Shown here in pieces: positions 15,509-34,565 of a DNA stretch of 64,000 bases. Source of the DNA: Oxalobacteraceae bacterium CAVE-383 (GTDB lineage: Bacteria; Pseudomonadota; Gammaproteobacteria; Burkholderiales; Burkholderiaceae_D). The notes under the pieces were generated by a model. The model searched no databases. It saw only the letters and a program-made list of their open reading frames with translations, and was not told the DNA's origin. The stretch spans positions 620,001-684,000 of the forward strand of contig REGP01000002.1 in assembly GCA_004134995.1 (NCBI GenBank), in the 5' to 3' direction. The translations under genes were made by a program, and so were the position numbers. Position 1 is the stretch's first letter; each line of letters opens with the position of its first letter.

Positions 15509-15584
15509 GCTGGCTTAGCTCATCTGGTAGAGCACCTGACTTGTAATCAGGGGGTGGCGGGTTCAAGTCCTGCAGCCAGCACCA
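15509..15584 (+). tRNA. tRNA-Thr (anticodon TGT)
   Basis: Complete 76-base tRNA with encoded CCA. The acceptor stem GCTGGCT pairs with AGCCAGC, the D arm is GCTC/GAGC, the anticodon stem CCTGA/TCAGG encloses loop CTTGTAA, and the T arm GCGGG/CCTGC encloses TTCAAGT. The anticodon TGT reads ACA threonine codons. A TATAAT at 15485-15490 just upstream may be its own promoter. Confidence 0.98.
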
Positions 15585-15627: not shown

Positions 15628-15687
15628 TACATCGCAAGTACATCACAAGCCACCATTCACACCAAAATTATCGGTTACAATGCACGC

Positions 15688-15840
15688 ACTCTTTGGGGAG
15701 TAGCCATCTTCCGAGCAATTCGGAAGAGCCCGTGTCAACATTCTCGACTATTTCCATAGTCGTGGCACCGGTAGCCAATCTGGTAGGCGAGACCAACGAC
15801 ATATCCGCGTATTCGGTCGGGCGCGCGGGTGCGTCGTTGA
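15688..15840 (+). promoter_or_regulatory. yybP-ykoY (Mn2+) riboswitch upstream of mntP
   Basis: The leader contains the conserved segments CTTTGGGGAGTAGC (from 15691), a TGTCAACA block, and GGTAGGCGAGACC before the downstream stem. Helices TCTTCCGA/TTCGGAAGA and CGACTA/TAGTCG fit the multi-stem aptamer. A later hairpin (CAACGAC with GTCGTTG, 15794-15839) close to the gene start may act as the expression platform. The class is known to sense Mn2+ and to control mntP, the gene found here. Confidence 0.85.
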
Positions 15841-15867
15841 ACCTTGCCTGATCCGGATGCTTTTCAA

Positions 15868-27400: not shown

Positions 27401-30121
27401 CTACGCTTGAATCTCCAGCCGCGTTTCGGTCAGCAGTTTTTTGATCTCCGGCACGCAGGAGCCGCAATTGCCGCCGGCTTTCAGGCAGGCGGTGACCTGC
27501 GTCACGCTGTCCAGATTGCCCGCGCGGATGGCGTCGCAGATGGTATTGCTGCCGATTCCATAGCAGGAGCAGATGGTGCGGCCGGTATCGATGCCGGGCT
27601 CGGCCGGCTGGCCCAGCAGCAGGCCGGTGCGGTCGAGATCGTCCAGCCGCGGTTTTTCGAACAAGCCGGCCAGCCAGGCGCGCGGCGGCAGCGCGGCCGT
27701 GCTGCTCAGGAAAATGCACTTGTCGATGCGCTGATCGACCACATGCACCGCGCGGTAGACGCCGGCGCTCTTGTCTTCGTATTCCAGCCAGTCGGCATCG
27801 GGGTCGGCGATATCGAGCAGCGCGCGCGCCCAGGCGCGGTGATCGTCAATGGCTTCCCGTCCGGAAAATTCGTAGCGCACGAATTGCTTGCCGCGGATGC
27901 GGGTCCAATAGGTCAACTGGTCCGCGGCAATCGCATCGCGGCTCAGGATGAAACCGTGCCAGGCGACATGAAACGGTTCGATGCGCACCGGCGTGTGCTT
28001 GAATTCCGGCTCGCCGGAAACCGGATCGACCACCGGATTGACCAGGCCGCCGACACGCGCATCGGATGCGGTCTGGCCGTTCCAGTGAATGGGCACGAAC
28101 AGACTGCCGCGCGCGATGCCGCCGCTGGTCTGCACGCGCGCCACCATGGCGCCCCAGCGTGTGGCGATGCGCGCCAGCTGGCCGGCCTGCACCCCGTACA
28201 GCAGGGCGTCCTGCCCGTGCAGATCGATAAACGGTTCGGGCGTGTGCTCGGCCAGCCGCGCCGATTTCCCGGTGCGCGTCATCGTATGCCATTGATCGCG
28301 CATGCGGCCGGTGTTCAGAATCAATGGATAGCCGTCATCCGCGGCATGCATGGGCGCGCGCGGCGGGGTCGCGATGAAGCGCGCCTTGCCGTCGGCGTGC
28401 GCATAACGGTGGTCGGCGAACAGCCGCTGGGTGCCGGCGGCCGCGCCGGAGGGCTTGCGCGAGACCGGCCATTGAATCGGCTGCAGGCCGTCGAATTGCG
28501 CGCGGTCCATGCCGGCCAGGCCGTCGAGATTGAAGACGCGCGGTATGGCATCTTCGCCGCTGCCGCCGTTCCGGTAGGCGCTCAGCCGCGCGTGTTCGTC
28601 GAACACCTCGTGCGCCGCATTGAAGCCGAAGCCCGTGTAACCCATGCGCTGCGCCACCTGGCACAGGATCTGCCAGTCCGGCCGGGTTTCCCCCGGCGGC
28701 GCCAGGAAGCTGCGCTGGCGCGAGATGCGCCGTTCCGAATTGGTCACGGTGCCGTCTTTTTCGCCCCAGCCCTGCGCCGGCAGCAGGATATGGGCGAAGG
28801 CATTGGTATCGGTGCGTTCGACGATGTCCTGGCAGATCACCAGTTCGCATTTCTCCAGCGCGCGCTGCACCTGGCCGGCGTCCGGCAGGCTGACCATCGG
28901 ATTGGTCGAAACGATCCAGACCGCCTTGACGCGGCCGGCTTCGATGGCCTGGAACAGGTCGACCGCTTTCAGGCCGGGGCGCTCGGCAATGCGCGGCGAA
29001 TCCCAGAAAGTCTGCACCGCGGCGCGATGCGCAGGCTGCTCCAGATCCATATGCGCAGCCAGCATATTGGCCAGGCCGCCGACTTCGCGTCCGCCCATGG
29101 CGTTCGGCTGGCCGGTGATCGAAAACGGCCCCATGCCGGCGCCGCCGATGCGGCCGGTGAGCAGATGGCAATTGATGATGCTGTTGACTTTGTCGGTGCC
29201 GGCCGACGACTGGTTAACGCCTTGCGAAAAGGCGGTGATGACCTTGGCGGTGACGCTGAACTGCTGGTAGAAATCGAGCAGATCCTGCAATGGGATGCCG
29301 CACACTTGCGCCACCGCGGCCGGATCGGTGCAGTCGATCTCGGCGGCGGCCAGCGCGGCCTCCAGGCCATTCGTATGGCCGGCGATGAATTCGCGGTCGG
29401 CGGCGCCGTTGCGTTCGAGATAGCACAGCAGGCCGTTGAACAGCCAGACGTCGGTGCCGGACCTGACCGGCAGATGCATGTCGGCCTGTTCGCAGGTCGC
29501 GGTGCGGCGCGGATCGACCACTACCAGTTTCATCGCGGGCCGGTCCAGCTTGGCCTGCATGATGCGCTGGAACAGGATCGGATGGCACCAGGCGGTGTTC
29601 GATCCGGCCAGGACGATCATGTCGGCCTTTTCCAGGTCGTCGTAGCACAGCGGCACCAGGTCGGCGCCGAATGCGCGCTTGTGGCCGGCCACGGCCGAGG
29701 ACATGCACAGGCGTGAATTGGTATCGATGTTGGCGCTGCCGATATAGCCCTTCATCAGCTTGTTGGCGACGTAATAATCTTCTGTCAGCAACTGGCCCGA
29801 GACATACAGCGCCACCGCATCCGGGCCATGGCGTTCGATGATGCCGCGCAGGCCGCCGGCCACGGCGTCCAGCGCCTGATCCCAGCCCACCCGCTTGCCG
29901 TGTATTTGCGGATATAGCAGGCGTCCCTCGAGATCGACGGTCTCGCCCAGCGCGGCGCCCTTGACGCACAGCTTGCCGGCATTGGCCGGATGCGACTCGT
30001 CGCCCGCCACCGCGACGTTGCCGTCGGCATCCAGCGTGGCGCGCACGCCGCAGCCGACGCCGCAATACGGACAGGTGGTCAGGGTGCCGCTTTTGGCGGA
30101 GGAGGGCAGGGAGAGATTCAA
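27401..30121 (-). CDS. nasA: Assimilatory nitrate reductase catalytic subunit, TTG start, C-terminal BFD-like domain
   Basis: Molybdopterin enzyme that reduces nitrate to nitrite in the cytoplasm. The N-terminal [4Fe-4S] site is Cys17, Cys20, Cys24 and Cys52 (CPYCGVGCG and KLCVKG). The last 60 residues contain CSCYGIG and NCGSC, a bacterioferritin-associated ferredoxin-like [2Fe-2S] domain, as in many NasA proteins. The frame is open up to 30199, inside the previous gene, but GGAG seven bases before a TTG at 30121 marks the likely start and no in-frame ATG is near. An out-of-frame ATG three codons from a stop lies between them. 906 residues. Confidence 0.93.
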   Translation of the reverse strand: MNLSLPSSAKSGTLTTCPYCGVGCGVRATLDADGNVAVAGDESHPANAGKLCVKGAALGETVDLEGRLLYPQIHGKRVGWDQALDAVAGGLRGIIERHGPDAVALYVSGQLLTEDYYVANKLMKGYIGSANIDTNSRLCMSSAVAGHKRAFGADLVPLCYDDLEKADMIVLAGSNTAWCHPILFQRIMQAKLDRPAMKLVVVDPRRTATCEQADMHLPVRSGTDVWLFNGLLCYLERNGAADREFIAGHTNGLEAALAAAEIDCTDPAAVAQVCGIPLQDLLDFYQQFSVTAKVITAFSQGVNQSSAGTDKVNSIINCHLLTGRIGGAGMGPFSITGQPNAMGGREVGGLANMLAAHMDLEQPAHRAAVQTFWDSPRIAERPGLKAVDLFQAIEAGRVKAVWIVSTNPMVSLPDAGQVQRALEKCELVICQDIVERTDTNAFAHILLPAQGWGEKDGTVTNSERRISRQRSFLAPPGETRPDWQILCQVAQRMGYTGFGFNAAHEVFDEHARLSAYRNGGSGEDAIPRVFNLDGLAGMDRAQFDGLQPIQWPVSRKPSGAAAGTQRLFADHRYAHADGKARFIATPPRAPMHAADDGYPLILNTGRMRDQWHTMTRTGKSARLAEHTPEPFIDLHGQDALLYGVQAGQLARIATRWGAMVARVQTSGGIARGSLFVPIHWNGQTASDARVGGLVNPVVDPVSGEPEFKHTPVRIEPFHVAWHGFILSRDAIAADQLTYWTRIRGKQFVRYEFSGREAIDDHRAWARALLDIADPDADWLEYEDKSAGVYRAVHVVDQRIDKCIFLSSTAALPPRAWLAGLFEKPRLDDLDRTGLLLGQPAEPGIDTGRTICSCYGIGSNTICDAIRAGNLDSVTQVTACLKAGGNCGSCVPEIKKLLTETRLEIQA

Positions 30122-30134
30122 GGCATTGCTCCGT

Positions 30135-31439
30135 TCAGGCCGCGGCCTGTTCGCACAAGGCGCGGCCGAACAGCAGGCGATGGCGCATGGCGCCGACATC
30201 GGCGCCGCGCTGGATCAGATCGAAGTAGAACGGCCCGTCCTTGACGTCGCCATACAGGACGGCGCCGATCAGGCGGTCTTCCTTCAGCACCAGGCGCTTG
30301 TAGATGCCGCGGCGCGGATCGCGCAGGATCAGGTCTTCGCTGCCGGCGCCGCCGATGAAGTCGCCTGCGGAATACAGGTCCACGCCGGTCACCTTGAGCT
30401 TGGTGGCGGTGGCCTGCTGCACGTAGCGCCGGTGTCCGGCGTTGGCCAGATGCGCGCCGCAGACGCGCGCCTGGTCCCAGATCGGCGCCACCAGGCCGAA
30501 GGTGGCCTTGCGGTGCTGCACGCATTCGCCCACCGCGTAGATGCGCGGATCGTAGGTCTGCAGCGTGTCGTCGACCACGATGGCGCGTTCGCAATGCAGG
30601 CCGGCCTGCTGCGCCAATTGAATGTTCGGACGCACGCCGGCGGTCATCACCACCAGATCGGCGGGGATGGCGCTGCCGTCCTTGAATGCGACCGCCGTCA
30701 CATGATCCTTGCCGATGAGGGCGCTGGTATCGGTTTCCAGCAGGAAGCGCAGGCCTTTCGCTTCCAGCGCCTTCTTCAGCAGGATCGCGGCGGACTGATC
30801 CAGTTGCCGGTCCATCAGATGCGCGCCTTTATGCACCACTGTCACCTCCATGCCCTGGCGCTGCAGGCCGTTGGCGGCTTCCAGCCCCAGCAGGCCGCCG
30901 CCGATCACCACGGCGTGGCGCTTGTCGCGCGCCGCATGCAACATAGTTTCGACATCCTGGATATCGCGAAAGCCGATCACGCCGGGCAGCTTGTGGCCTT
31001 GCACCGGAATGATGAACGGCGTGGAGCCGGTGGCGATCAGCAGGCGGTCGTAATACGCTTCGACGCCGTTGCGCGAACGCACGAAACGCCGCTTGCGGTC
31101 GATGTATTCGATCGGGTCGCCCGCATGCAGCATGATGCCGTTGCCGCTGTACCATTCGCGCGTATGCAGCATGATGTCGTCGACCTGCTTGTCGCCGGCC
31201 AGCATCGGCGAGAGCAGGATGCGATTGTAATTGCCGTGCGGCTCCGCGCCGAACACCGTAATGCCGTACAGATCCGGCGCCAGCTTCAGCAGTTCTTCCA
31301 CGGTGCGCATCGCGGCCATGCCGTTGCCGATCACCACCAGCGACAGCTTGGCGGGGATGGCCGGCATGGAGGCCTGCGCGGGCGCGCCGGCTTGGCTGAT
31401 TTTCGGCTTGCTTATCTGGCTGTTCATCGGTGCATTCAT
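30135..31439 (-). CDS. FAD-dependent electron-transfer protein of nitrate reductase (NasB/NirB-N-like)
   Basis: 434-residue pyridine nucleotide-disulfide oxidoreductase. The FAD-binding VVIGNGMAAMRTVEELL and the NAD(P)H-binding VVIGGGLLGLEAANGL motifs are both complete, as is the ATGSTP signature. It resembles the N-terminal half of NirB but lacks the siroheme domain, and probably passes electrons to NasA, whose gene follows 13 bases later. The N-terminal 25 residues are Ala/Pro/Ser-rich. A start further in is possible because M25 precedes the core. Confidence 0.88.
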   Translation of the reverse strand: MNAPMNSQISKPKISQAGAPAQASMPAIPAKLSLVVIGNGMAAMRTVEELLKLAPDLYGITVFGAEPHGNYNRILLSPMLAGDKQVDDIMLHTREWYSGNGIMLHAGDPIEYIDRKRRFVRSRNGVEAYYDRLLIATGSTPFIIPVQGHKLPGVIGFRDIQDVETMLHAARDKRHAVVIGGGLLGLEAANGLQRQGMEVTVVHKGAHLMDRQLDQSAAILLKKALEAKGLRFLLETDTSALIGKDHVTAVAFKDGSAIPADLVVMTAGVRPNIQLAQQAGLHCERAIVVDDTLQTYDPRIYAVGECVQHRKATFGLVAPIWDQARVCGAHLANAGHRRYVQQATATKLKVTGVDLYSAGDFIGGAGSEDLILRDPRRGIYKRLVLKEDRLIGAVLYGDVKDGPFYFDLIQRGADVGAMRHRLLFGRALCEQAAA

Positions 31440-31464: not shown

Positions 31465-31842
31465 CTAGGCAGCCACCCAGATTTTGCCGTCTTCGATGCG
31501 TGTCGGATAGGCGGTCACGGAATGCTCAGGCGCTTCCAGGCATTCGCCGGTCTGCAGATCGAAATGCTGTTTATAGATCGGCGAGGCCACCACGATGCGC
31601 TCGCCCAGATTGCCGACCAGGCCGCGCGACAATACGGCCGCCCCGGAATTCGGATCGACATTCTGGATGGCGAAGTAACGGTCGGCCTGGGTGGGCGCCT
31701 GGCCTTGGCCCTGGCCGCCGACGCGGACATGGAATACCGCGATCTGCTCGCCGGCGACCAGGGCGCAGACGCCGGTATTGGGCACGATCTCATTGAGTTG
31801 GCAGACCGGCGTCCAGCGCTGGATGGCTTGTTCGCTATGCAT
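31465..31842 (-). CDS. nirD: Nitrite reductase small subunit (NirD, Rieske-like)
   Basis: 125-residue Rieske-fold partner of NirB. The fold pattern is recognisable (FAIQNVDPNSGAAVLSRG, then HFDLQTGECLE), but the CxH and CxxH ligands of true Rieske clusters are missing, as is normal for NirD. The start at 31842 gives the usual N-terminus after the nirB stop; the frame runs a few codons into nirB. Confidence 0.95.
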   Translation of the reverse strand: MHSEQAIQRWTPVCQLNEIVPNTGVCALVAGEQIAVFHVRVGGQGQGQAPTQADRYFAIQNVDPNSGAAVLSRGLVGNLGERIVVASPIYKQHFDLQTGECLEAPEHSVTAYPTRIEDGKIWVAA

Positions 31843-31867
31843 GATGGTTCCTTGGTTCTTCGATTCT

Positions 31868-34399
31868 TCAAGCAACTTGCACGATCGGAATCGTGACCCG
31901 CTGCTTTTCTTCCGGCGTGGCCGGGCGTATCTGTCCGCGTTCTTCCATGAAGACCACGTTGCGGTCTTGCTGTTCGCTGTTGACGAAATGGCGGAAGCGC
32001 CGGCGGGTTTCCGGATCGGAGACGGCCTTTTTCCATTCGCATTCGTAAGCGTCGACCACCAGTTGCATCTCGGCCTCGAGTTCGGCGGCGATGCCCAGTT
32101 TGTCCTCCAGCACCACCTGCTTCAGATAGTCCAGCCCGCCTTCCAGATTGTCGCGCCAGACGCTGGTGCGCTGCAGGCGGTCGGCGGTGCGCACGTAGAA
32201 CATCAGGACGCGGTCGATGGTGCGGATCAGGGCGGCGCGGTCCAGGTCGGTGGCCAGCAGTTCGGCGTGGCGCGGCTTCATGCCGCCGTTGCCGCAGACA
32301 TACAGGTTCCAGCCTTTTTCGGTGGCGATCACGCCGATGTCCTTGCTCTGCGCCTCGGCGCATTCGCGCGTGCAGCCGGACACGCCGAACTTGATCTTGT
32401 GCGGCGCGCGCAGGCCCTTGTAGCGGTTTTCGAGATCGATGGCCAGGCCCATGCTGTCGTCCACGCCGTAGCGGCACCAAGTCGAGCCGACGCAGGATTT
32501 GACGGTGCGCAGCGCCTTGCCGTAGGCATGGCCGGTTTCGAAACCCGCGGCGATCAGTTCTTCCCAGATCGGCGGCAATTGCTCGACGCGCGCACCGAAC
32601 AGATCGATGCGCTGGCCGCCGGTGATCTTGGTGTACAGGCCGTATTTCTTGGCGATGTGGCCGATGGCGATCAGGCCGTCGGCCGTGACTTCGCCGCCGG
32701 CCATGCGCGGCACCACCGAATAGGTGCCGTCCTTCTGGATATTGCCGAGGAAATAATCGTTGCTGTCCTGCAGGCTGGCGTGTTCCTTCTTCAGCACGAA
32801 ATCGTTCCAGCAGGATGCCAGGATGCTGGCCGCCAGCGGCTTGCAGATATCGCAGCCGAGACCCTTGCCGTGCTGCGCCAGCAAGGCGTCGAAGGTCTTG
32901 ATGGCGCCCACGCGCACCAGGTGGTACAGCTCCTGGCGCGAATAGGCGAAGTGTTCGCAGACATGGTTGTTGACCGCCATGCCCTGCTTTTTCATTTCCG
33001 ATTTCATGATCTGCGTCACCAGCGAGACGCAGCCGCCGCACGAGGTGCCGGCCGCGGTGCAGCTTTTGACCGCGCCGATGGAGGTGGCCCCGTCGCGCAC
33101 CGCGGCGCAGATCGCGCCTTTGGAAACGTCGTTGCAGGAACAGATCTGCGCGCCGTCCGGCAAGGCGTCCACGCCGAGGCCGGGTTTGGCGTTGCCTTCG
33201 GCTTGCGGCAGAATCAGGAATTCGGGCGATTCGGGCAGTTCGATCCGGTTCAGCATCATCTGCAGCAGCGTGCCGTATTCGCTGGCGTCGCCGACCATCA
33301 CGCCGCCCAGCAAGTATTTGCCACAATCGGAAACCACGATTTTCTTGTAGATCTGTTTGCGTTCGTCGGTGAATTGATACGAGCGGCTGCCTTCGGCCTT
33401 GCCGTGCGGATCGCCGATGCTGGCCACGTCGACGCCCATCAGCTTGAGCTTGGTGCTCATGTCGGCGCCCTTGAATTCGCCGGCCTCGCCGATCAGATGC
33501 CTGACCGCGATGCGCGCCATTTCATAGCCGGGCGCGACCAGGCCGAAAATCTGGCCTCCCCACAGCGCGCATTCGCCGATGGCGTACACATCGGGATCGG
33601 AAGTCAGGCAGCTGTTGTCGATCACGATGCCGCCGCGCGGCCCCACTTCCAGGCCGCTTTCGCGCGCCAGTTCATCGCGCGGGCGGATGCCGGCCGAAAA
33701 TACGATCATGTCGGTTTCGAGATGGCTGCCGTCGGCGAAGTTCATGCGGTGCGTGGCGCTTTCGCCGTCGACGATTTCCAGCGTATTTTTTTGCGTATGC
33801 GCGGTGACGCCGAGATTCTCGATTTTCTTGCGCAGGATGCGGCCGCCGCCTTCATCGACCTGCACCGCCATCAGGCGCGGCGAGAATTCGACGACATGGG
33901 TTTCCAGCTGCATGTCGCGCAAGGCCTTCGCGCATTCCAGGCCCAGCAGGCCGCCGCCGACCACCACGCCGGACTTGGCGCGCCGGCCGCATTCCAGCAT
34001 CGCTTCGAGGTCTTCGATGGTGCGGTAGACGAAGCAATCCTTGCGGTCGTTGCCCGGCAATTGCGGCATGAACGGATAAGAGCCGGTCGCCATGATCAGC
34101 TTGTCGTAGGAGAGGATTTCGCCGGTGCTGACGGTCACCGTTTTGGCGGCGCGGTCGATGCTTGCGGCGCGCGCATTGAGTTTCAGCAGAACGTTGTTGC
34201 GCTCGAAGAAGCCGGCCGGCACCAGCGACAGATCTTCTGCGGATTTGCCGGCGAAAAATTCGGACAGGTGCACCCGGTCGTAGGCCGGACGCGGCTCTTC
34301 GCACAGAACCGTGACTTCAAGGCCGGGCAGGCCGCTGTCGGCCACGCTTTCCAGGAATTTGTGGCCGACCATGCCATGACCGATGACGATGATTTTCAT
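31868..34399 (-). CDS. nirB: Nitrite reductase (NADH) large subunit
   Basis: 843-residue siroheme enzyme that reduces nitrite to ammonium. The order is FAD domain with VIGHGMVGHKFLE at the N-terminus, NADH domain (VVGGGLLGLECAKAL), a BFD-like [2Fe-2S] domain (CSCNDVSKG to GTSCGGCVSLV), and the siroheme/[4Fe-4S] domain with CRYG, GCTREC and CGNGG near residues 640-720. A Shine-Dalgarno (ggag) precedes the ATG. It is the first gene of the nirB-nirD-nasB-like-nasA operon and is controlled from the leader at 34438-34580. No nitrate transporter gene is in the window. Confidence 0.97.
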   Translation of the reverse strand: MKIIVIGHGMVGHKFLESVADSGLPGLEVTVLCEEPRPAYDRVHLSEFFAGKSAEDLSLVPAGFFERNNVLLKLNARAASIDRAAKTVTVSTGEILSYDKLIMATGSYPFMPQLPGNDRKDCFVYRTIEDLEAMLECGRRAKSGVVVGGGLLGLECAKALRDMQLETHVVEFSPRLMAVQVDEGGGRILRKKIENLGVTAHTQKNTLEIVDGESATHRMNFADGSHLETDMIVFSAGIRPRDELARESGLEVGPRGGIVIDNSCLTSDPDVYAIGECALWGGQIFGLVAPGYEMARIAVRHLIGEAGEFKGADMSTKLKLMGVDVASIGDPHGKAEGSRSYQFTDERKQIYKKIVVSDCGKYLLGGVMVGDASEYGTLLQMMLNRIELPESPEFLILPQAEGNAKPGLGVDALPDGAQICSCNDVSKGAICAAVRDGATSIGAVKSCTAAGTSCGGCVSLVTQIMKSEMKKQGMAVNNHVCEHFAYSRQELYHLVRVGAIKTFDALLAQHGKGLGCDICKPLAASILASCWNDFVLKKEHASLQDSNDYFLGNIQKDGTYSVVPRMAGGEVTADGLIAIGHIAKKYGLYTKITGGQRIDLFGARVEQLPPIWEELIAAGFETGHAYGKALRTVKSCVGSTWCRYGVDDSMGLAIDLENRYKGLRAPHKIKFGVSGCTRECAEAQSKDIGVIATEKGWNLYVCGNGGMKPRHAELLATDLDRAALIRTIDRVLMFYVRTADRLQRTSVWRDNLEGGLDYLKQVVLEDKLGIAAELEAEMQLVVDAYECEWKKAVSDPETRRRFRHFVNSEQQDRNVVFMEERGQIRPATPEEKQRVTIPIVQVA

Positions 34400-34437: not shown

Positions 34438-34491
34438 AAAACGAAAAGCGCCCGCTCTTCATGGTTGCAAAACCCCATGCCGAGCGGACGC
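34438..34491 (-). terminator. Intrinsic terminator in the nirB leader (attenuator)
   Basis: On the minus strand a 10-base stem (GCGTCCGCTC with GAGCGGGCGC, one G-U) is extended by an inner CATGG/CCATG stem and followed by TTTTCGTTTT. It lies 38 bases before the nirB start, and its 5' arm shares bases with the second hexaloop hairpin, so the two structures are mutually exclusive. Confidence 0.85.
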
Positions 34492-34523
34492 CGTTGTCCT
34501 TGCAGACCCCACATTGGATCTGC
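34486..34523 (-). promoter_or_regulatory. Two adjacent hexaloop hairpins, ANTAR-type antiterminator RNA
   Basis: On the minus strand, the first hairpin (34502-34523) has an 8-base stem and loop AATGTG; the second (34486-34499), two bases later, has stem GGAC/GTCC and loop AACGGC. Both loops have six bases with A at position 1 and G at position 4, the pattern recognised by ANTAR-domain antiterminators such as NasR, NasT and EutV. The 3' arm of the second stem overlaps the downstream terminator. A NasT/NasR protein is therefore predicted elsewhere in the genome. Confidence 0.85.
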
Positions 34524-34565
34524 GTAAAATTGTGTGGATCGTCATTGATCCTGCGGTGTAGGCAA

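Follow-up and report, generated by a model that had tools for sequence, protein, structure and literature searches.

ANTAR proteins control transcription termination through leader RNAs, and extracts of PMC3369931 and PMC3369936 give the rule by which such leaders are recognised: two hairpins, P1 and P2, each carry a six-base loop with A at position 1 and G at position 4 (A1/G4), and P2 and an intrinsic terminator exclude one another. In the extracts of PMC8934654 the minimal ANTAR site is redefined as one hexaloop, the dimer is proposed to be caught first by P1 (the recruitment hairpin) and then to move to P2, and the EutX sRNA is noted to carry an extra hexaloop. For nitrate assimilation, the corresponding portion of PMC3795266 mentions, with data not shown, several regulatory hairpins in a row upstream of Paracoccus nasA, and that of PMC5424462 the mutation in vivo of hairpins HI and HII in the Paracoccus nasA leader. 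A described ANTAR leader with three hairpins was not found among the titles and abstract openings covered by our literature search.

The leader considered here lies on the minus strand of the window (the whole 64-kb stretch of DNA that was analysed, in whose positions the coordinates below are given), between nirB and the divergent recA, and could be read directly from the letters. Its interpretation as an ANTAR-type antitermination leader is supported at the level of sequence, where we find the hairpins, the overlap of P2 with the terminator, their conservation, an ANTAR protein and an association with ANTAR genes. With a probability of roughly 0.88, we regard it as a leader of nirBD-nasA with three ANTAR-type hexaloop hairpins, through which NasT would control antitermination, presumably in response to nitrate. 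Its parts are as follows.

34580-34566, minus strand: sigma54-type promoter box TGGCAC-N5-TTGC, exact match
34551-34536, minus strand: P0 hexaloop hairpin GGATC-AATGAC-GATCC, loop A1/G4, -5.3 kcal/mol alone
34523-34502, minus strand: P1 hexaloop hairpin GCAGATCC-AATGTG-GGGTCTGC, -12.2 kcal/mol alone
34499-34486, minus strand: P2 antiterminator hexaloop hairpin GGAC-AACGGC-GTCC, -4.0 kcal/mol alone
34491-34448, minus strand: intrinsic terminator stem GCGTCCGCTC...GAGCGGGCGC, 10 bp, -28.5 kcal/mol alone
34447-34438, minus strand: terminator U tract TTTTCGTTTT, read from the letters

The first-pass annotation of this DNA had described two neighbouring stem-loops with six-base A1/G4 loops (AATGTG and AACGGC), followed by a terminator whose 5' arm re-uses the second stem. 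Both hairpins are present where it placed them, and the letters bear out the re-use: the 5' arm of the terminator begins within the P2 loop and includes the entire P2 3' arm, and P2 and the terminator are therefore mutually exclusive. Where that annotation erred was in the count, given that with P0, which like the sigma54-type box was absent from it, the hexaloops number three. P1 and P2, as A1/G4 hexaloop stem-loops of at least 3 bp each, and the intrinsic terminator overlapping P2 are the features by which an ANTAR leader is recognised; the gap between P1 and P2 is 2 nt, counting the full P1 stem. When both strands were scanned for this composite (a hexaloop P1 of at least 5 bp, a hexaloop P2 of at least 4 bp, and a terminator overlapping P2), the leader was the single site in the window, and 0 of 100 dinucleotide-shuffled windows contained one. 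The minimum free energy of 34530-34435 is -46.8 kcal/mol versus -28.3 +/- 3.3 for shuffled sequences (z -5.67, with 0 of 200 as low). For a longer leader, the free fold, which contains P0, P1 and the terminator, reaches -55.6 kcal/mol versus -46.0 kcal/mol when P2 is forced, and it follows that the terminator is the predicted default and that P2 requires help.

The sigma54-type box is the sole exact match within the window, while with one mismatch allowed there are 9 matches versus 7.65 expected; as such, the box taken alone is weak evidence, and its weight comes from its position and conservation. NtrC-type sites are not enriched in the window (59 matches versus 60 expected). Sigma54 promoters are initiated at a characteristic distance from the box, and this textbook spacing predicts a transcript start near 34554, which would make P0 the 5' end of the transcript.

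The operon under the leader, and its divergent neighbour, are composed as listed here.

31868-34399, minus strand: nirB, nitrite reductase large subunit, first gene of the operon (ATG 34399); TIGR02374 1141 bits and PRK14989 1368 bits, both above cut-off
31465-31875, minus strand: nirD, nitrite reductase small subunit; TIGR02378 111 bits, above the cut-off of 74.65
30135-31439, minus strand: NirB-like FAD/NAD(P) oxidoreductase; N-terminal half of TIGR02374, 419 bits, below cut-off
27401-30199, minus strand: assimilatory nitrate reductase-like catalytic subunit, nasA by gene context
from 34868, plus strand: recA, divergent; TIGR02012 561 bits

The best NCBIfam scores of the nasA product are those for formate dehydrogenase alpha (489 bits) and NasC/NasA (428 and 390 bits), none of which reaches its cut-off, and the NirB-like oxidoreductase probably acts as the electron-donating subunit of this nitrate reductase. 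The best narK relative in the genome of the window has only 27% identity over part of the protein, and the leader therefore directly precedes nirB. Elsewhere in the window, a yybP-ykoY manganese riboswitch (15683-15863, plus strand, 51.2 bits, above the cut-off of 45) lies just 3' of a tRNA (15509-15581).

Relatives of nirB were sought in 61 genomes, and the 33 loci examined comprise the window, 29 same-genus loci, and G060, G018 and G027. A P2-anchored leader was obtained from 31 of the 33; the two loci that gave none belong to G060, from another family of the order, and to G027, a genome that is 63% complete. Since P2 served as the search anchor (as GGAC-A..G..-GTCC), its A1/G4 agreement in 31 of 31 is by construction, and its loops (AACGGC or AATGGC) and its 100% paired, invariant stem are to be read in the same manner; P1 and the terminator lay outside the anchor. 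The box TGGCAC-N5-TTGC recurs in 30 of the 31 aligned leaders, the remaining one (L037) having AGGCACGGAAGTTGC. In the alignment of these leaders (alignment A1), the P0 loop has G at position 4 in 31 of 31 and A at position 1 in 30 of 31, and 99.4% of its stem cells are paired, with two compensated pairs. The P0 of L050 has a fully compensated stem (GGGTC/GACCC) and the loop GAGGAT, in which G1 breaks the A1 rule. The first and fourth positions of the P1 loop are each kept in 30 of 31, the exception being L037, which is misaligned there and has its own hairpin loop ACAGAC; the P1 stem is paired in 87.6% of cells, with a 1x1 mismatch at one pair in 26 of 30. For the terminator stem the figure is 98.4%, again with two compensated pairs, and the retention of hexaloops and terminator in relatives, named as a check in the first-pass annotation, holds for P1 and the terminator on these counts and for P2 by construction. 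When P0, P1 and the terminator were put to a shuffle control, between 0 and 3 of 500 shuffles reached four measures, while 32 reached the pair types; with P0, P1 and P2, pairs changed on both sides were reached by 1 of 500 and the other four measures by 38 to 80 of 500. Variation within the genus is too low, and therefore covariation alone cannot prove the helices. A narK relative stands between leader and nirB in 29 of the 31 loci, with 75-100% identity to the gene of L003 (which itself scores 296 bits against the NarK family model, whose cut-off is 312), and none was found in that interval in the window or in L004/L038.

The genome of the window, 98.97% complete, contains one match to PF03861 (ANTAR), at 78.2 bits and outside the window, as had been anticipated when a NasT or NasR protein encoded elsewhere in the genome was predicted. 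The protein (P0001, 207 aa, ANTAR at 148-200) has PF03861 as its only Pfam match at E 0.001, with weak matches of 19-25 bits to receiver-type NCBIfam models. A receiver-type N-terminus joined to ANTAR, and no NIT match, is the NasT arrangement; NasR was rejected as the regulator on the same ground, and only the NasT half of the prediction stands. Alignment A2 contains 11 other NasT-like proteins, with which P0001 shares 37-48% identity, and the solved chains nearest to P0001 by sequence are a response regulator (6wsh), a putative antiterminator (1s8n), a nitrate regulatory protein (4akk) and AmiR (1qo0). Relative to the same 11 proteins P0001 has an insertion of ~14 residues near the N-terminus (residues ~12-26).

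This nasT gene immediately precedes nrtABC, an operon for a nitrate ABC transporter (substrate-binding protein PF13379, 343 bits; nitrate permease TIGR01183; ATPase TIGR01184). An open reading frame 3' of the transporter (L032:14996-16777) shows similarity to E3 ligase effectors of type III secretion (SlrP/IpaH, ~120 bits, far below the cut-offs). Between nasT and nrtA we find a second leader (L032:10446-10516), which scores 52.4 bits with the Rfam narK RNA, above its gathering cut-off of 43.2, and in which a sigma54 box, TTCGGCC-AACGGC-GGTCGAA, AGAC-AAAGGC-GTCT and then a terminator re-using P2 were made out partly by eye. The targets found in this genome are thus two, nirBD-nasA and nrtABC. 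Our leader model R1 gives 112.8 bits for the nirB leader, its next score in the genome being 18.2 bits at an overlapping site on the other strand, and it did not match the nrtA leader; R1 therefore overlooks relatives, and the target list may be incomplete.

A sensor is less readily assigned. No NasS gene apart from NrtA, and as such no cytoplasmic NasS, was found in the genome of the window, and the presumed nitrate response is therefore less simple than a NasS-type sensor would make it. The only strong NasS/NrtA relative there is the NrtA-like protein (L032:10582-11892), which is 53% identical to a Pseudomonas protein (L148) called NasS from its position before nasT; the next match to NrtA in the genome has 25.9 bits. 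The NrtA carries what we take to be a Tat-like signal (RRHLIKS...). Of the 34 genomes of the genus, 30 yield one strong relative (52-54% identity) with the Pseudomonas query, the others being G017 (47%), G003 and G027 (only 33-36%) and G009 (none), and many of them have a second relative near 35%.

Beyond the genus, leaders were sought at 80 named loci derived from the NasT alignment, and picked by protein rather than RNA. The parser, which is independent of R1 and requires three elements, namely a box resembling that of sigma54, a P2 with a hexaloop and a terminator that overlaps it, returned 44 leaders in 42 of the 80 nasT loci and none in the other 38. Upstream of P2, these 44 leaders have 0, 1 and 2 A1/G4 hexaloops in 2, 28 and 14 cases, respectively, where shuffles of the same stretches lead one to expect 41.7, 2.2 and 0.04. 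Among the 14, we regard L148, L154, L176 and L180 as doubtful. When upstream hexaloop hairpins of at least 5 bp were collected regardless of loop letters, 41 of 50 proved to be A1/G4. Leaders with three hexaloops occur in records labelled Rhodoferax, Acidovorax, Limnohabitans, Cupriavidus and others, and R1 located them in four genomes (L185-L188) that share the window's family but not its genus. The P0 stems of such leaders vary between families. In a set of 69 leaders, the next gene is a nrtA relative in 48, narK in 14, a FAD oxidoreductase in 3, nirB in 1 and none recognised in 3; within it, L184-L212 were fetched by R1 and are biased to the R1 structure, and their sources may overlap the 80 named loci. 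In another parse, 61 of 78 R1 matches were covered and the weakest 17 omitted.

Spacing was measured in 20 chosen three-hexaloop leaders, namely 17 of the 23 in the 69-leader set together with L138 and L142, both from the parse of R1 matches, and the window. The distance from promoter box to first loop is 34.1 +/- 1.4 nt, and the successive loop-to-loop distances are 32.9 +/- 6.5 and 27.7 +/- 7.9 nt. Six of the 23 had been dropped, five for doubtful hairpins or promoter (L148, L154, L176, L180 and L198) and one as same-genus (L184). With these restored, 22 of 26 have the first loop 32-37 nt from the promoter, which argues that P0 is usually, and not always, at the transcript start; the exceptions are L154 (44 nt), L148 (50), L198 (53) and L180 (59), and the tightness of the promoter-loop spacing thus partly reflects the choice of leaders.

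Within the Rfam table, the narK RNA (RF03032) is typed Cis-reg without a named regulator. The narK motif was reportedly described in an earlier paper, and the terms narK RNA, narK motif and RF03032 were not found in the literature searched, of which our coverage was partial. The consensus consists of a sigma54-like GGCACA...UUGCU, a CC-AACGGC-GG hairpin and CGAC-AAAGAC-GUCG. With this model the window leader reaches 17.8 bits (E 0.28), short of the gathering cut-off; the Rfam default cut-off applied to the whole window gives no match at the leader, and RF03032 had no match in the 19 same-genus loci scanned, some of them cut inside the leader 5' end. Other Rfam matches in the window at relaxed E (miRNA, snoRNA and others) were taken as chance. 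Three weaker narK matches in the genome of the window (19.9-23.5 bits) are all without a sigma54 box; the one at 23.5 bits, below the cut-off (L034, G000:C7:118383-118447), has two A1/G4 hexaloops and the other two at most one.

A sample of 300 genomes of the order, taken as the same for the RF03032, PF03861 and R1 searches (the genome labels agree), allows both models to be set against the occurrence of ANTAR, which is present in 148 of the 300. RF03032 has 35 matches at E 0.001, only 4 of them above the family cut-off, and 35 of 35 positive genomes have ANTAR (p 2e-12, kinship ignored). R1 has matches in 62 of the 300, a count that includes the window genome and one congener, both used to build it, and 61 of the 62 have ANTAR (Fisher p 3e-21, kinship again ignored), the exception being G197, which is 67% complete. 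Where a genome has matches to both models, they fall at the same site in 17 of 21. Among the best 30 of the 35 narK-RNA loci, with the window's own genome included, an ANTAR reading frame lies within ~1.5 kb in 19, and domain scans of five such proteins showed a NasR-like NIT-ANTAR arrangement in two and receiver-ANTAR in three. One reading frame adjoining a narK RNA (L071:284-2383, 700 aa) has receiver and ANTAR only at its C-terminal end, and its start codon may be wrong. Automatic parsing recovered two A1/G4 hexaloops behind a loosely defined promoter (GG-N9-11-GC) in 22 of the 30; the box selected in L078 is a poor sigma54 box. The other 8, whose stems, linkers or promoter boxes are beyond the thresholds, have by eye a first loop of AACGGC-, AATGGC- or AACGAC-type and were excluded from the count. 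From these patterns we consider it very probable that the Rfam narK RNA is an ANTAR leader and that the family also takes in the sigma54 promoter.

It is reasonable to postulate the following sequence of events at nirB. The RNA would start at the sigma54-type promoter, by virtue of which initiation would probably be under general nitrogen control. In the default state of the leader, the terminator would form alongside P0 and P1, and transcription would end before nirB. Active NasT would grip the hexaloops on the nascent RNA; with P2 held folded, the terminator stem would be broken, and RNA polymerase would read into nirB. In the simplest reading, P0 and P1 would both serve for recruitment and capture NasT while P2 has yet to emerge, a doubled recruitment suggested by its fit to the published EutV hand-over model.

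How far this can be generalised is a matter on which we are more tentative. The three-hexaloop leaders may constitute a distinct ANTAR leader class in Betaproteobacteria nitrate-assimilation operons, in which P0, at the transcript 5' end, usually follows a sigma54 promoter at an almost constant distance and would be the first landing site, NasT being handed along from P0 through P1 to P2 (or loading as two dimers) as polymerase moves, and in which the narK RNA would be the same class captured by a narrower model; we give this reading somewhat less than even odds, slightly lowered by the four spacing exceptions among 26. A different account, in which the window holds a classic two-hairpin ANTAR leader and P0 is an incidental 5' hairpin (e.g. 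an RNA-stabilising stem) with no NasT contact, would accord with the two hexaloops of the textbook motif as given in extracts of PMC3369931 and PMC8934654, with the commoner occurrence of one hexaloop upstream of P2 (28 of 44 leaders versus 14 of 44), and with the G1 that replaces A1 in the P0 of L050. However, the P0 loop is otherwise kept on the alignment at both critical positions, two upstream A1/G4 hexaloops were seen in 14 of 44 leaders versus the 0.04 expected, the 41 of 50 collected regardless of letters point the same way, and P0 stems vary between families, while a plain stabilising stem would need no A1/G4; we consider it unlikely that P0 is incidental, if by no means negligibly so.

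An exchange of partners between P0 and P1 is also conceivable, given that in most same-genus leaders the arms of P0 (GGATC/GATCC) and those of P1 (GATCC or GATCT/GGATC) are mutually complementary, such that an alternative P0:P1 pairing through the GATC arms might mask the loops and would have to be resolved by NasT or some other factor. The free fold nevertheless retains P0 and P1 as local hairpins, and in three-hexaloop leaders of other families the arms are, by eye, partly non-complementary (e.g. GGTGAGCGGCAC with TGAAGGCC in L195), which makes such partner exchange improbable. Last, the typing of the related narK RNA as Cis-reg without a named regulator would be compatible with an attenuator independent of NasT, such as a small-molecule riboswitch, bearing its hexaloops by chance. 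Chance is difficult to reconcile with A1/G4 in 41 of 50 upstream hexaloops, and independence from NasT with the presence of ANTAR in 61 of 62 and 35 of 35 element-bearing genomes (versus 148 of 300) or with the ANTAR genes, two of them NIT-ANTAR, close to 19 of 30 narK-RNA loci; this explanation we regard as very improbable. A NasT-controlled antitermination leader with three hexaloops is thus the interpretation retained here.

The mechanism class itself is already established, and what our data support as new is the three-hexaloop layout and the identity of the narK RNA. The latter gives a probable mechanism and regulator to a cis-regulatory family that has no named regulator in the Rfam tables consulted. 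With natural leaders that carry three ANTAR sites, the manner in which a dimer uses its hexaloops (simultaneously, or by recruitment and hand-over) becomes directly testable, and the findings draw attention to a clade whose NasT apparently acts without a separate NasS sensor.

In comparison with known systems, the window leader resembles those of EutV/eut, NasR/nasF and AmiR/amiE, as represented in extracts of PMC3369931, PMC3369936 and PMC8934654, in having two A1/G4 hexaloops, a P2 that overlaps the terminator, an ANTAR protein in the genome and an assimilation operon as its target. Unlike the dual-hexaloop leaders it has a third A1/G4 hexaloop, at the predicted transcript 5' end, and its P1-P2 gap of 2 nt compares with 5-12 nt in the E. 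faecalis eut leaders, where, according to the portion of PMC3369931 consulted, a 3-nt linker cut induction. Unlike the NasR system, P0001 does not have a NIT nitrate-sensing domain fused to ANTAR. The likeness to NasS-NasT of Paracoccus, Azotobacter and Pseudomonas lies in a NasT-like ANTAR protein and a nitrate assimilation target; in contrast to those systems, no NasS separate from the NrtA with its Tat-like signal was found in the window genome, and the operon begins with nirB. With RF03032 the leader shares a sigma54-like box and A1/G4 hexaloops, in addition to the coincidence of sites described above, but it has an extra hairpin, and the Rfam model stops at P2 and omits the terminator. 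The EutX and rli55 sRNAs, in the extracts of PMC8934654, likewise combine a dual hexaloop motif with an additional single hexaloop bearing G4; whereas these are possible sequestering sRNAs, the element described here is a leader that stands directly before the operon it would control.
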